42,324 nt of DNA from Desulfovibrionaceae bacterium (GTDB taxonomy: Bacteria; Desulfobacterota; Desulfovibrionia; Desulfovibrionales; Desulfovibrionaceae). This document shows, in pieces, positions 13,219-22,821 of this stretch (positions are counted from its first letter, which is position 1; the number at the start of each line of letters is the position of its first letter). Below the pieces are notes generated by a model. That model had not been told where the DNA came from and made no database searches. It was given only the letters and a program-made list of their open reading frames with translations. The DNA lies in NCBI GenBank assembly GCA_015233395.1, contig JADFXV010000020.1:1-42324 (forward strand), read 5' to 3'. The translations under genes and the position numbers were made by a program.

Positions 13219-14598
13219 TTATTTTCGAATAAATTTGACCAGCTTATTGCTGTCGCCGGTCAGGTCGATATGGTGCGTTGAGCAGGAGATGCAGGGGTCG
13301 TAGGCGCGTACGAGCATGGACAGTTTGAGTTCGATATCGGCTTCGGAGAGGGTGGCGAGCGTCGGGAGCAGGGCGTCGAGGTCGCGCTGGATGTTGGCGT
13401 GGTTTTGGTTGGTGGGGATGACGCAGTCGGCGTTGGCGATGCGGCCGTTCTCGTCGTATTCGTAGGCGTGAAACAAGATGCCCCGGGGCACTTCCACGGC
13501 GCCGACGCCTTTGCAGGCGAAGGTTTTGATCGGCGCGGGCGTTTCGTTGCGGATGCCCCGGGCGAGCAGGATGTCGATGATGCGCAGCGAATCCTCGACG
13601 GAGTGGAAGCATTCCACGAGTTGGGCCGCGGTGATCATGAAGGGGTTGTGGCAGGGCGCCTTGAGGCCCAGTTTCCGGGCGGCTTCCTTGCCCAGGTGGC
13701 TGAGTTTGTCGTGGTTGAGGTTGAAGCGCGAGAGCGCGCCGACCATGTAGGAATCGTCCACGCCTTTGGTCCATTTGGCGGTGGACTGGGGCAGGCAGTA
13801 TTCGCGGGTGACGTCCTTGTAGAGCTGGTTCGGGCGGCGCTGGGTTTTGCTGGAGCCGATTTCGCCCCAGTAGAGCGGGTATTCGGCGTCCGAAACCAGG
13901 GCGACGTATTCGGTTTGGCGGTGGAATTTCGGGATGTTGCCGGCCACGTCCACGACCACGTCGAGGATGGCTTTGGCTTTGGGCACGATGGCTTCGAGCA
14001 TGGCTTTCAAGTTTTTCAGGTCGTCGTCCGTGGGCAGTTTGGCGAAGCCGCCCGGGACCATGCGCTGCGGGTGGATGGTGCGGCCGCAGATCATGTCGCT
14101 CATGCGGTTGGCGGTGCGGTGGCAGGCGACCACGGCCAGGACTTCTTCCTTGTGGCTGGCGGCCAGGGGCAGCACGGAGGCCGCGCCCATGAAGTCGGGC
14201 AGGGCCAGATAGCCTACGTGCAGGAAGTGGCTTTGCAGGTTTTCCGCGTGGATGGCCAGTTTGCGCAGCAGCAGGGTCTGCTCGGAGATCTGGACGCCGA
14301 AGGCGTCTTCGGTGGCCTGGAGCGAGCTGAGCTGGTGGCCGATGGAGCAGATGCCGCAGATGCGCGAGGTGATGTGGTGGACGTCCTGGTAATTGCGCCC
14401 GATGAGCATGGCCTCGAAGAAGCGCGGCGCCTCCGGGACTTCCCAGCGGCAGACCGAGACTTTTCCGCCCGCGTCGATTTCGGCCACGATGTTGCCGTGC
14501 CCTTCGACGCGGGTGAGGTAGTGGACGTTGATCTTTTTGCCCTTGGCGGGCAGCGGTGTTGGGGCCGCTTCGGTCTTCGCCTTTTCAACCTTGGCCAT
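13219..14598 (-). CDS. hydA: [NiFe] hydrogenase large (alpha) subunit, group 3b sulfhydrogenase type
   Basis: This 459-residue subunit carries the Ni-Fe active site for reversible H2 oxidation in the cytoplasm. The N-terminal ligand motif is RICGIC (C81, C84), and the C-terminal one is DPCISCSTH (C436, C439, H442). Seventeen residues follow H442, which would be removed by a maturation protease after Ni insertion. Other family features are LTRVEGHGN, HAENLQSHFLH and VPRGILFHAYEYD. A Pro/Ala/Lys-rich stretch of about 20 residues precedes the conserved part. GAGG precedes the ATG. It is the last gene of a hydB-hydG-hydD-hydA unit, the order known from Pyrococcus sulfhydrogenase. A 21-bp hairpin separates it from hydD. 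Group 3b enzymes couple H2 to NADP(H), and some reduce sulfur. Confidence 0.93.
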   Translation of the reverse strand: MAKVEKAKTEAAPTPLPAKGKKINVHYLTRVEGHGNIVAEIDAGGKVSVCRWEVPEAPRFFEAMLIGRNYQDVHHITSRICGICSIGHQLSSLQATEDAFGVQISEQTLLLRKLAIHAENLQSHFLHVGYLALPDFMGAASVLPLAASHKEEVLAVVACHRTANRMSDMICGRTIHPQRMVPGGFAKLPTDDDLKNLKAMLEAIVPKAKAILDVVVDVAGNIPKFHRQTEYVALVSDAEYPLYWGEIGSSKTQRRPNQLYKDVTREYCLPQSTAKWTKGVDDSYMVGALSRFNLNHDKLSHLGKEAARKLGLKAPCHNPFMITAAQLVECFHSVEDSLRIIDILLARGIRNETPAPIKTFACKGVGAVEVPRGILFHAYEYDENGRIANADCVIPTNQNHANIQRDLDALLPTLATLSEADIELKLSMLVRAYDPCISCSTHHIDLTGDSNKLVKFIRK

Positions 14599-14692
14599 AG
14601 CGAACCTCGTTATGTTTTCGTCGCCAAATCGCGGTAATCCGACGGACTTATGTATCTCAACCCATTACAAAGTTTTTTGACGAAAGGGGGGC

Positions 14693-14738
14693 TCGAGGGG
14701 AAAACCCCTTTTGTTCACAAAAGGGGTTTTCCCCTCGA
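14693..14738. repeat. Perfect 21-bp hairpin between hydD and hydA
   Basis: Arms 14693-14713 and 14718-14738 pair perfectly with loop TTCA, and the tip is CCCCTTTTG-TTCA-CAAAAGGGG. A fragment AAAGTTTTTTGACGAAAGGGGGG lies on its hydA side, as in the bipartite elements elsewhere. It sits in the 155-nt gap inside an operon, where a full terminator would cut off the catalytic subunit. It may be a partial terminator, an RNA-stabilising structure or a mobile repeat. Confidence 0.75.
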
Positions 14739-14753
14739 TTCCCTCCTCTCCCT

Positions 14754-15491
14754 CTACAACGGCGCGTACGTGTCGCCCAAAAAGAAGCGCAGCAGGTCGC
14801 GCACGGTTTTGTGATCGAAGCCGTTTTTGTTCATGGCTTCGCGGGCCGCGTCGAGGTTGGCTTTCGGGGCCACGCCCCGGCAGCCCCAGCAGTGGGCGCC
14901 TTCGGTGACGCAGCAGGCGCCGCAGCCGGCGCGGGTGATCGTGCCCAGGCAAATGCGGCCCAGGTCGTAGCGGCAGATGTTGCCGGCCTTTTTGCATTCA
15001 ACGCAGACCGGGTAATCCGGTATCCAGGGTTGGCGTCCGAGCAGGAGTTCCTTGACCACCCGGGCGAATTCGCTGCGGTCGATGGGGCAGCCGTGGAGTT
15101 CGGCGTCGACCTTGACCACTTTTTTGAGCGGCCTGGCGGCGTAGGTGGAGTACCAGCGGCCGGAGGTTCCGTAGACCCGTTCCTTGTAGACGTCCGGGCT
15201 CATGAAGTTCTTGATGCAGTTGACCCCGCCGATGGTGGCGCAGGCGCCGAGGGCGACCAGGTACTTGGCCTTGGAGCGGATGTCCTTGATGCGGGCTTCG
15301 TCTTCGGGCCGGGTGATGGAGCCTTCGACAAAGGCGATGTCGTAGTCGTCGGAGTGGCCGGTCATGACTTCCCGGAAGCTGACCACTTCCACGTGCGAGA
15401 GGATGTCGAGGAGTTTTTCCTCGAGGTTGGCCACCTGCAATTGGTCGCCTTCGCACCCCGCGAAATCGAAAAACGCGATTTTCGGTTTCAT
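14754..15491 (-). CDS. hydD: [NiFe] hydrogenase small (delta) subunit
   Basis: This 245-residue subunit belongs to the NADH:quinone oxidoreductase 20-kDa (NuoB/PSSP) family and carries the Fe-S clusters closest to the Ni-Fe site. The proximal-cluster cysteines appear in FAGCEGD (C13), GACATIGG and HGCPIDR. The C-terminal half is cysteine-rich (CVECKKAGNICRYDLGRICL, GCGACCVTEGAHCWGCRG) and matches the extra clusters of sulfhydrogenase delta subunits. There is no Tat signal, consistent with a cytoplasmic enzyme. The start lies 12 nt after the hydG stop, with AAGGAAA upstream. Confidence 0.9.
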   Translation of the reverse strand: MKPKIAFFDFAGCEGDQLQVANLEEKLLDILSHVEVVSFREVMTGHSDDYDIAFVEGSITRPEDEARIKDIRSKAKYLVALGACATIGGVNCIKNFMSPDVYKERVYGTSGRWYSTYAARPLKKVVKVDAELHGCPIDRSEFARVVKELLLGRQPWIPDYPVCVECKKAGNICRYDLGRICLGTITRAGCGACCVTEGAHCWGCRGVAPKANLDAAREAMNKNGFDHKTVRDLLRFFLGDTYAPL

Positions 15492-15503
15492 CTGGCGTTT
15501 CCT

Positions 15504-16337
15504 TTAGATGGCTTCCTCGACGGATTCGATCTGGTTGTACTGGAAGACCGGTCCCTCGATGCAGGCGTTGAGATGGTTGATCTGGCAATGGCCGCATTTG
15601 CCCAGGCCGCACTTCATCTTGCGTTCGAGCGAGACGTAGATGCGGTTGGAGGGGATGCCGATCTTGAGGCATTCGCCCAGGCAGAATTTGTACATGATGG
15701 GAGGCCCGACCATGGCCACGTTGGTCTTGTCCGGATCGATCCTGACTTTGGGGATCAGCGTGGTGATGACGCCGCAGTGGCCTTTCCAGGTTTCGTCGGG
15801 GACGTCCACGGTTTCGAGCACCTCGACGTCCTTGCCCGAGGCGAGTTCGGCCAGCTGGTCGATGAAGATGCGTTCCTTGGGATTGCGCGTGCCGACGAGC
15901 AGGATGATGCGGCCGAATTCGTCGCGGTGCTTGAGCTGGTAGTGGAGCAGGCTGCGCAGGGGGATGTAGCCCAGGCCTCCGGCGATGAACAGGGTGTCCT
16001 GGCCGACGAATTTCTGGATCGGGAAGAACGAGCCGTAGGGTCCGCGGATGCCGACTTTGTCGCCGACTTTCAGGTCGTGCATGATGCCGGTGACCGCGCC
16101 GATCTTGCGCACGGCCAGTTCGAAATTGTTGGATTCGCGGATGGGCGCGCTGGAAACCGAAAAGGGCGCCTCGCCCACGCCGTAGACCGAGAGCATGATG
16201 AACTGGCCGGGCTTGTGCATGAGCGGCCGGCCGGAATCGTTTTCGAATTCGAAGAGCGTGACCAGCTCGGACAGCTCCTTTTTGACCTTGAGCGTGGCCG
16301 GACGCGGCAGGTAGGCGGAGAATTCTTTAATCTTCAT
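15504..16337 (-). CDS. hydG: Hydrogenase FAD/NAD(P)-binding (gamma) subunit
   Basis: This 277-residue protein of the ferredoxin-NADP reductase family connects the hydrogenase to NAD(P)H. It has a beta-barrel FAD domain (SVSSAPI in the RxYS-like position), an NAD-binding fold (TLFIAGGLGYIPLRSLL, ILLVGTRNPKE, NVAMVGPPIMYKF) and a C-terminal [2Fe-2S] motif (ERKMKCGLGKCGHCQIN). Related proteins are sulfhydrogenase gamma subunit and dihydroorotate dehydrogenase PyrK. The start codon overlaps the end of hydB by 11 nt, which implies translational coupling, and GGAGG lies within hydB. Confidence 0.92.
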   Translation of the reverse strand: MKIKEFSAYLPRPATLKVKKELSELVTLFEFENDSGRPLMHKPGQFIMLSVYGVGEAPFSVSSAPIRESNNFELAVRKIGAVTGIMHDLKVGDKVGIRGPYGSFFPIQKFVGQDTLFIAGGLGYIPLRSLLHYQLKHRDEFGRIILLVGTRNPKERIFIDQLAELASGKDVEVLETVDVPDETWKGHCGVITTLIPKVRIDPDKTNVAMVGPPIMYKFCLGECLKIGIPSNRIYVSLERKMKCGLGKCGHCQINHLNACIEGPVFQYNQIESVEEAI

Positions 16338-17373
16338 GCTGGCTGGCCTCCCATAGCGTGTTGAACACCTCCCGGGGGTTGGCGATATTGGTCGTGCAGG
16401 CGCGCACGCACCGGCCGCAGCCGATGCAGCCCAGTTCGCCGTAGCGGTCGTAGATGTATTTGCCCTTGCGCATGTAGCGGTGGCGGTAGCGTTCCAGGGC
16501 CTTGGCCCGGAAATTGTGCTCGCCGGCGACCAGGGCGAAGGAGGTGAGCATGCAGCCGTCCCATTCCCGGAAGCGGACGCCTTTTTGCAGCAGTTCGTCG
16601 GCCTCCTCGCGGATGTCGAAACAGTAGCAGGTCGGGCAGACCAGATTGCAGGAGCCGCAGGCCAGGCACAGTTCGGCTTTTTTCTGCCAGAGCGGGGAAT
16701 TCCAGCATTTGTCCAGGAGCCTGGGAACTTGTTTCCAGTCGAAGTTCAGGGCGTTGCTCCGGCCCATTTCCATGATCTTGAGATGGGCCTTGCGGGCGGC
16801 TTCGCGCGCGCCGGCCGAGGCCGGGGTGAGTTCGCCCGCGGCCAGGAGCATTTTCTCGCCGCGCATGGAGCCGACCTCGACCAGGAAGGTGGAGGGGCCG
16901 GTTTTGGTCCAAAAAAGGTCGAAGCCCCGGTCCACTTCGCCCGCGCCCATGGAGCTCCAGAAGGCGGTTTCGGCGACCCGCATCGGGGTCAGGCCGAAGA
17001 CCACGGTGGCGTCGCGGCGGTGCAGGTAATACTGGTCCGGCGCCCCGGTCTCCATGATCTGGTCGAGCTGGTTGATGCCCCGGATGTCGTAGGGATGCAC
17101 GCCGAAGAGCAGTTGCTTGGGCGCGTCGAAGACCATCTCGGCGGTTTTGGCGGCCAGGTCGAAGACCACGAGGTCTTCCTTGGGCGGCAGGAAATAGCGT
17201 TTGAGGGTGTTGTAGGCCAGATCGTAATCGAAGGCGATTTCCACGCCTTCCCGCCAGGGTTTGAAGTCGAAGTACCCGCCTTCCACGGCCGTGGGCACGT
17301 AGACCTGGTGCTCCTTGCTCCAGGCCGCCAGCATGGCGTGGAGCTGTTCGAGGTAGACGGTGTAGGCAGTCAT
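16327..17373 (-). CDS. hydB: Hydrogenase iron-sulfur (beta) subunit
   Basis: This 348-residue protein belongs to the 4Fe-4S dicluster family, which includes sulfhydrogenase beta and anaerobic sulfite reductase A. Two ferredoxin-type motifs lie in the C-terminal third: CLACGSCNLVCPTCYCF and CIGCGRCVRACTTN. A large N-terminal domain (ending near KAELC) is typical. It passes electrons between HydG and HydD. The start at 17373 follows GGAGGG, and an upstream ATG at 17436 lacks a ribosome site. It is the first gene of the operon. A weak promoter could be TTGTTC-17 nt-TACGGT between about 17450 and 17480 on the minus strand, but no clear regulator site is seen. Upstream lies the divergent aldolase leader. 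Confidence 0.9.
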   Translation of the reverse strand: MTAYTVYLEQLHAMLAAWSKEHQVYVPTAVEGGYFDFKPWREGVEIAFDYDLAYNTLKRYFLPPKEDLVVFDLAAKTAEMVFDAPKQLLFGVHPYDIRGINQLDQIMETGAPDQYYLHRRDATVVFGLTPMRVAETAFWSSMGAGEVDRGFDLFWTKTGPSTFLVEVGSMRGEKMLLAAGELTPASAGAREAARKAHLKIMEMGRSNALNFDWKQVPRLLDKCWNSPLWQKKAELCLACGSCNLVCPTCYCFDIREEADELLQKGVRFREWDGCMLTSFALVAGEHNFRAKALERYRHRYMRKGKYIYDRYGELGCIGCGRCVRACTTNIANPREVFNTLWEASQHED

Positions 17374-17608
17374 GCGCCCTCCATCGAAAGATTGGCCGGC
17401 CGGGCGGGAAAATTTGCGGCCGGAACGCCCGTGCATCGCGATTGGAACACAACCGTACAGGCAATGCGAAAACGGAACAAGCCTCGTGAAAAAAGTAATT
17501 TATTGATCGTAGCTTGCTCCTCGAAGCGCCGCGCTCGGCCCAACTGACCGGCCAACCGGCAAATCGGGAAGAGGCGATTTTTTTGATTTTTACACCGATC
17601 GCGAAGGG

Positions 17609-17637
17609 TTGACAAGGGCCGGCTCACGGCATAAGGA
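17609..17637 (+). promoter_or_regulatory. Promoter of the aldolase attenuator
   Basis: A perfect TTGACA (17609-17614), a 17-nt spacer and TAAGGA (17632-17637) precede the leader. If this is the promoter, the start at about 17644 would make the leader peptide mRNA almost leaderless. Alternatively AAGGA (17633-17637) is the ribosome site, 7 nt before the leader ATG, and the promoter lies further upstream. Both readings cannot hold at once. Confidence 0.5.
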
Positions 17638-17644
17638 CGAAACC

Positions 17645-17731
17645 ATGCGATACGCCAGTGACCGCCTTCCGGGATTCTTTTATTGTTATAGCTACGCAAC
17701 CGCCCGTGGTCATTGGGAGTTCTCGTTGTAG
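17645..17731 (+). CDS. Aromatic-rich attenuator leader peptide
   Basis: This 28-codon ORF runs from ATG to TAG. The core GFFYCYSYA packs two Phe and three Tyr within seven codons (17675-17695). In all there are 4 Tyr, 3 Phe and 1 Trp among 28 residues, far above random. The Phe/Tyr codons lie just upstream of the 5' arm of an antiterminator (17703), while the stop codon lies beyond that arm. This is the geometry needed for a ribosome stalled on scarce Phe-tRNA or Tyr-tRNA to leave the arm free. The single Trp codon (17714) lies inside the arm, so it is unlikely to be sensed in the same way. Confidence 0.85.
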   Translation: MRYASDRLPGFFYCYSYATARGHWEFSL

Positions 17732-17789
17732 CGCACAGCCGGACACGCCTCCCAAAAGGCCGCGGGCACACCCCGCGGCCTTTTTTTTT
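17703..17789 (+). promoter_or_regulatory. Antiterminator/terminator switch of the aldolase gene
   Basis: Terminator: GGCCGCGGG (17758-17766) pairs with CCCGCGGCC (17772-17780), then nine T (17781-17789). Antiterminator: 17703-17711 (CCCGTGGTC) pairs with the same 17758-17766 arm over 9 positions, two of them G-U. TTGGGAG (17713-17719) then pairs with CTCCCAA (17749-17755), giving a collinear 16-bp stem. The two structures share 17758-17766 and exclude each other. A ribosome that completes the leader covers 17713-17731 and favours termination. A ribosome stalled at Phe/Tyr codons favours read-through into the gene at 17840. Confidence 0.88.
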
Positions 17790-17839
17790 CGGCCGCGCGA
17801 AGCCCTCGCTCAACGGAGCAAACCGCAAGGAGACACACC

Positions 17840-18634
17840 ATGAACATCGGCAAATCCATCCGCAGGGAACGCATCTTCAACCGCGACACCGGCCGGGCGA
17901 TCATCGTGCCGCTGGACCACGGGGTCAGCGTCGGTCCGATCGAGGGCATCGTCGACATGCGCTTGACCGTGACCCAGATCGTCAACGGCGGGGCCAACGC
18001 CGTGCTCATGCACAAGGGCGTCGTGGGCTGCGGCCACCGGGGGCGCGGCCGCGACATCGGGCTGATCGTCCATCTCTCGGCTTCGACCTCGCTGTCTCCC
18101 ACGCCCAACGCCAAATCCCTGGTGTGTTCGGTGGAAGAAGCGCTGATCCTGGGAGCGGACGCGGTCTCGGTGCACATCAACTTGGGCGACGAAAGCGAAC
18201 CGGCCATGCTGCGCGACCTGGGCGAAACGGCCAAGGCGGCGAGCGCCTGGGGCATGCCGATCCTGGCCATGATGTACGGACGCGGCCCCAAGGTGGTCAA
18301 CGAGTTCGACCCGGGCATCGTGGCCCATTGCGCCCGGGTGGGCGTGGAGCTGGGCGCGGACGTGATCAAGGTTCCCTATACCGGCGACATCGATTCCTTC
18401 GCCCGGGTGGTCGAGGCGACCTGCGTGCCGGTGGTCATCGCCGGCGGGCCGAAAACCTCCAGCACGAAAGCCTTCCTGGAAATGGTGCGCGATTCCATCC
18501 TGGCCGGCGGCAAGGGGTTGTCCGTCGGACGCAACATCTTCCAACACAAGAACCCGACCCGGCTTTTGCACGCGCTCAACATGATCGTGCACGAAAACGC
18601 CTCGGTGGACGACGCGCTCGAAGGGCTGGAGTAG
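17840..18634 (+). CDS. DhnA-type class I aldolase, probably ADH synthase of aromatic synthesis
   Basis: This 264-residue TIM-barrel aldolase has motifs VPLDHGVS (Asp26), MMYGRG (Tyr146) and GADVIKVPY (Lys177, the Schiff-base lysine). These align with Asp33, Tyr153 and Lys184 of the Methanocaldococcus enzyme MJ0400. That enzyme makes 2-amino-3,7-dideoxy-D-threo-hept-6-ulosonate, the start of an alternative route to dehydroquinate. The same fold includes archaeal-type fructose-bisphosphate aldolase, which sequence alone cannot exclude. The Phe/Tyr attenuator just upstream argues for the aromatic role, and desulfovibrios are known to use the ADH/AroB' route. AAGGAG precedes the ATG. The usual partner (3-dehydroquinate synthase II) is not adjacent, and the next gene is a histidine kinase. 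Confidence 0.85.

Positions 18635-22744: not shown

Positions 22745-22821
<77 letters not shown>

Follow-up and report, generated by a model that had tools for sequence, protein, structure and literature searches.

A predicted aromatic amino acid-sensing transcription attenuator before ADH synthase genes of Desulfovibrionales

The stand-alone gene for 2-amino-3,7-dideoxy-D-threo-hept-6-ulosonate (ADH) synthase found in the 42,324-nucleotide stretch of Desulfovibrionaceae DNA analyzed here (the window) is very probably controlled by a ribosome-mediated transcription attenuator sensing phenylalanine and tyrosine, as judged from the sequence of the window and of its relatives (Table 1). Many archaea and some bacteria use ADH synthase and DHQ synthase II in place of DAHP synthase and AroB. 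A ribosome-mediated Phe/Tyr attenuator was the core of the original prediction, which is now strongly supported by the identity of the gene, the conserved leaders and the covarying, mutually exclusive helices; the generic label of aldolase given there has to be replaced, as the product scores above the curated TIGR01949 cut-off. The product of the window gene has MJ0400 (2qjg) as its nearest solved relative and, because it opens the aromatic amino acid pathway in its archaeal-type form, the Phe and Tyr that would be sensed are the end products of that pathway. In the same genome, a second ADH synthase copy (C93) heads the series ADH synthase, DHQ synthase II, chorismate mutase/prephenate dehydratase, and aroA, and is preceded by its own leader, MQPRNLLVQGLFGFFYFWYFSHARGQGSGSA. 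Elsewhere in the window, a divergent four-gene cluster on the reverse strand (13219–17436) resembles a cytoplasmic NAD(P)-linked [NiFe] sulfhydrogenase, with scores below the curated equivalog cut-offs, and a tRNA gene (Rfam) lies on the reverse strand at 22748–22821.

Table 1. Features of the attenuator region and of the gene behind it, in window coordinates.
Feature	Position	Strand	Basis
-35 box TTGACA of the leader promoter	17609–17614	+	Sequence; box position kept in relatives
Probable -10 box TAAGGA, 17-nt spacer, 7 nt 5' of the leader ATG	17632–17637	+	Weak consensus match; position conserved in relatives
Leader peptide ORF, 28 codons, MRYASDRLPGFFYCYSYATARGHWEFSL	17645–17731	+	ORF reading; ATG 17645, TAG stop 17729–17731
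Segment 1, pairs with 17706–17716 (11 bp, -15.8 kcal/mol)	17655–17665	+	Folding, shuffle test
Sensor codons FFYCYSY (TTC TTT TAT TGT TAT AGC TAC)	17675–17695	+	Leader frame; equivalent runs in relatives
Segment 2 (antiterminator 5' strand), within the leader ORF, codons for Ala-Arg-Gly-His-Trp-Glu	17702–17719	+	Folding, covariation
Segment 3 (antiterminator 3' strand, contains the terminator 5' arm)	17749–17767	+	Folding, covariation
Intrinsic terminator (segments 3:4), 13-bp stem 17754–17766/17772–17784 and U tract 17781–17789	17754–17789	+	Terminator search, folding, covariation in relatives
Shine-Dalgarno AAGGAG of the structural gene	17827–17832	+	Sequence
ADH synthase, stand-alone copy	17840–18634	+	TIGR01949, 376.5 bits (cut-off 299.45); NF005556

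The 28-codon aromatic leader described in the original prediction is borne out, from ATG 17645 to the TAG ending at 17731. An ORF with five aromatic codons in nine arose in 10 of 2000 shuffles of the window upstream region; this is the density of the window sensor run, below that of most relatives (7–8). Among sensor codons, TTT is preferred to TTC (159 vs. 49) and TAT to TAC (128 vs. 60), which is the reverse of the bias seen in the reference set of ten long window ORFs, the gene status of some of them being uncertain (TTT 45 vs. TTC 131; TAT 18 vs. TAC 80). Downstream, the terminator stem begins 22 nt past the leader ORF and comprises 13 pairs, 9 of them G–C, around a loop at 17767–17771, and the T run at 17781–17789 has its first four T inside the stem. 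The earlier description of a perfect 9-bp terminator followed by nine T is right about the nine T, whereas the 9 bp correspond to the G–C core of a stem of 13 bp. The antiterminator (2:3 helix) joins 17702–17711 to 17758–17767 and 17713–17719 to 17749–17755 (-29.6 kcal/mol); its coordinates had been given correctly, and one more pair has been found, for a total of 17 bp. This helix overlaps the end of the leader ORF and occupies the 5' arm of the terminator, the two structures being mutually exclusive, and an uninterrupted 2:3 helix of equal quality appeared in none of 1000 shuffles. The 11-bp 1:2 helix (17655–17665/17706–17716), which the original prediction did not mention, any more than it did the promoter, was matched in 4 of 1000 shuffles and, because it is present, the window attenuator would be a four-segment design and not the three-segment one proposed before. 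In relatives this helix is weak: the longest 1:2 helix reached p<=0.05 in 11 of 106 cases against 5.3 expected, which is near chance, and its duplex energy lay on average 1.5 s.d. below shuffles, compared with 4 s.d. for 2:3. At the family level, the conserved core can thus be taken to be the 2:3 and 3:4 helices.

From these features we infer a course of events of the classical kind. Transcription would begin at or adjoining the leader ATG, and the leader peptide would be translated without a Shine-Dalgarno sequence. As long as Phe-tRNA and Tyr-tRNA carry their amino acids, the ribosome would pass FFYCYSY to the stop codon (17729–17731) and mask segment 2, so that the terminator (17754–17789) would form and act in vivo. 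On the other hand, with too little charged Phe-tRNA or Tyr-tRNA, the ribosome would stall at 17675–17695, breaking the 1:2 helix, and the free segment 2 would pair with segment 3 while the 3' arm of the terminator is still to be synthesized, letting RNA polymerase continue into the gene. In folding calculations, a ribosome stall at F11 to Y15 leads the nascent RNA, made as far as 17771, to adopt the antiterminator (-35.9 kcal/mol), and with the ribosome at the stop codon only the terminator can form. Once the RNA is full-length, its minimum-energy fold contains the terminator even when the ribosome is stalled and, therefore, the switch would have to work kinetically (co-transcriptionally), like the classical one. 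It is possible, although rather unlikely, that the attenuator senses mainly one amino acid (Tyr or Phe) or slow translation in general, as might be suggested by the Tyr runs of other members of the window gene's clade and by the aroR leader of Corynebacterium glutamicum, which carries Phe-Tyr-Phe and responds to Phe, not Tyr, limitation (PMC11802643). Against this, the window run includes both Phe (17675–17680) and Tyr codons, and stalling from F11 to Y15 frees the whole of segment 2. Strict Tyr-only sensing by the window gene was set aside because of the two Phe codons in FFYCYSY.

A ribosome-mediated attenuator is also supported by a comparison of the sequences 5' of some 150 ADH synthase genes belonging to several families of Desulfovibrionales. 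Alignment of orthologous upstream regions, which the original prediction had proposed, revealed conserved aromatic leaders and covariation in both helices, and the claim withstood the search for orthologues devoid of leader and helices. A short ORF with at least five aromatic codons in nine is found in 148 of 168 distinct upstream regions, compared with 20 of 1680 shuffles, and in several families the aromatic-run ORF, the antiterminator and the terminator have been retained jointly, in the same place ahead of ADH synthase. In the leaders of relatives, the antiterminator 5' strand is the codon stretch directly after the aromatic run. When the leader base was set against the base N of the terminator arm GGCCGC[N]GGC, by reading the leader frame without folding, G/C was found in 58 cases, A/T in 44, T/A in 3 and a G/T wobble in 17, with 1 mismatch and two undetermined cases. 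Base N is usually without a partner in the terminator (94/125; 45/63 in the alignment), so the terminator is unable to explain this tracking; the leader residue thus alternates between Arg, Cys, and Ser with the RNA pair to the terminator arm preserved. In a 63-sequence alignment, the antiterminator is paired at 97.6%, compared with 37–45% when it is slid, and five pairs have changed on both sides; the terminator is paired at 92%, with eight pairs showing a change on both sides. The energy of the 2:3 duplex has a mean z of -4 against shuffles (n=142).

Searches of Rfam at gathering score and at relaxed score returned no credible match (Phe, Trp, His, Leu, and Thr leaders, among others), the best sub-threshold leader match being Thr_leader with 17 bits vs. 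55. Alternative helices alone would suit an attenuator controlled by a small molecule or a protein (a riboswitch or a TRAP-like protein) with a leader ORF devoid of any sensing role. Such control is very improbable: there is no match to an Rfam family, the in-frame aromatic run is the most conserved part, and its Phe, Tyr, and Trp letters vary by gene copy around a constant RNA core, whereas a ligand-binding RNA would be expected to conserve nucleotides and not a run of codons. A constitutive or generic terminator (e.g., one ending a small RNA or antisense unit that lacks annotation) beside an incidental small ORF is likewise hardly credible, since, although G–C-rich hairpins of similar sequence occur elsewhere in these genomes as partial model matches, a plain terminator explains neither the joint conservation of aromatic ORF, antiterminator and terminator before ADH synthase in several families nor the leader codon base that tracks the terminator arm.

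The leader seems to be transcribed from a promoter whose position is conserved in relatives. The sequence TTGAC[AGT]/TTAACA starts 33–38 nt 5' of the in-frame leader ATG in 124 of 151 leaders, and in 117 of those 124 the distance is 36–38 nt. In the window, the -10 box is a poor match that was not reported by a generic promoter scan. A motif resembling a Shine-Dalgarno sequence is missing in 117 of the 124 leaders with the box at 33–38 nt, and is present in 140 of 151 structural genes; among the remaining 27 leaders, 17 have such a motif and several have the box 51–65 nt away. A -35 box 33–38 nt before the ATG would put the transcription start at or adjoining this codon, and therefore the leader mRNA is probably leaderless, with no Shine-Dalgarno sequence. 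Both C. glutamicum (PMC4046766, PMC11857589) and Sinorhizobium meliloti (PMC7298713) provide known examples of leaderless leader peptides.

More than one type of leader has been found among the ADH synthase paralogues, whose operon and stand-alone copies were separated by gene context (in selected genomes), by an N-terminal motif (for counts) and by a tree. In genomes with two copies, the operon copy has a mixed Phe/Tyr/Trp leader and the stand-alone copy a Tyr-only or a Phe-only one. Tyr-type stand-alone leaders contain on average 4.2 Tyr, 1.2 Phe, and 0 Trp (19 leaders, four genera), and Phe-type leaders 6.3 Phe, 0.2 Tyr, and 0 Trp (15 leaders, four genera). The ratio Y/(F+Y) of the operon leader is 0.25 when the second copy is Tyr-type and 0.51 when it is Phe-type, as if the operon leaders had ceded the letter read by the partner copy. 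Phe-type copies are found in two separate parts of the tree; the window gene belongs to the Tyr-type clade (19 rows, SH-aLRT 95), yet carries the mixed Phe and Tyr run FFYCYSY. It is likely from these patterns that the ADH synthase paralogues of Desulfovibrionales each have an attenuator of their own, probably leaderless, and differ in the amino acids sensed (Phe, Tyr, and Trp together for the copy of the aroB'-pheA-aroA operon, Tyr-only or Phe-only for the stand-alone copy), that the Phe type arose more than once, and that the sodium:solute symporters also preceded by this element would be aromatic amino acid importers. Some loci have ADH synthase genes in tandem (L166/L262 in G093; L012–L015 in g6), with a single attenuator before the first.

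Links with other genes have been found as well. In the genome of the window, a covariance model recovered both ADH synthase sites and, in addition, a partial match before an anthranilate synthase gene; the latter site (L269, G000:C119:5900-5982) precedes a trpE-like gene, contains a Trp-rich frame (W..WW) and is probably a trp attenuator. In relatives, sodium:solute symporter genes (PF00474; L294, L297, and L301 in G167, G100, and G012) are preceded by leaders that are Phe-rich (FSFFFFFSFRFF; YFFFFSFFSF) or mixed (SFYFYGYYFF), and a symporter behind such an attenuator is predicted to be an aromatic amino acid importer. Another example from the relatives is the Trp-rich leader WWWQWW, followed by a terminator, before the gene for the DctP binding protein of a TRAP transporter (L302, G006:C1:2817658-2817780), for which Trp-regulated uptake is predicted. 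In other families of the phylum, where model matches were judged on leader and first gene only and some (L310, L314) look spurious, aromatic leaders lie before ADH synthase or DAHP synthase (the latter in L312, L319, L320, L321, and L324), and different entry enzymes therefore share this type of control. A Leu-rich leader-like ORF was also noticed before a 2-isopropylmalate synthase gene in another family of the phylum (L323).

The biological significance of these elements is that they form a well-supported attenuator family, outside Rfam and near-universal in one order of sulfate reducers, which would control an entry enzyme other than DAHP synthase and allows transporters of aromatic amino acids to be predicted; the covarying leader codons and antiterminator base offer direct and cheap tests. 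Moreover, as the leaders of the paralogues would read different amino acids, they provide a natural experiment on regulatory division between duplicated enzymes. Published descriptions place amino acid attenuators largely in gammaproteobacteria (PMC3766115), and for Desulfovibrio attenuators the literature offered nothing direct beyond one table entry of 2005, a putative attenuator before the aroA'-aroB' supraoperon of D. vulgaris taken from Merino's prediction web site (PMC1173090, Table 7). That element is homologous and belongs to ADH synthase (aroA') in its operon copy; as tabulated, it is a computed attenuator, given without leader peptide, covariation or paralogue comparison, and the stand-alone copy lies outside its coverage. 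In D. hydrothermalis, an operon of the aroA'-aroB' type moves as a unit in RNA-seq data (PMC4162548). Among the papers searched, mostly open-access ones, no description was found of these leader peptides, of covariation in them or of the partition among paralogues.

The closest tested parallel, as represented in later accounts, is aroR/aroF of C. glutamicum (Neshat et al., 2014, cited in PMC11802643; small-RNA evidence in PMC4046766), where a Phe-Tyr-Phe leader and an attenuator also precede an aromatic entry enzyme; however, aroF encodes DAHP synthase and not ADH synthase, the phylum is unrelated and, in those accounts, the system is not known as an isozyme-specific set of leaders. In the ilvBNC attenuator of the same bacterium, the leader peptide is translated without a Shine-Dalgarno sequence (PMC4046766, PMC11857589), as is also probable for the window leader. 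The RNA of trpL in S. meliloti likewise begins with the leader ATG, but this alphaproteobacterial system reads Trp only and serves the trpE(G) operon (PMC7298713). With pheL-pheA, pheM-pheST, and trpL-trp of Escherichia coli, the elements share clustered cognate codons, exclusive antiterminator and terminator and, in the window, a 1:2 helix; unlike them, they have no Rfam match (e.g., to RF00513, Trp_leader), precede other genes, have a probable leaderless start and conserve 1:2 only weakly. The class of mechanism is thus already known and the partition among paralogues is the new part which, if true, would be the translational counterpart of the Tyr-, Phe-, and Trp-sensitive DAHP synthase isozymes of E. 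coli.
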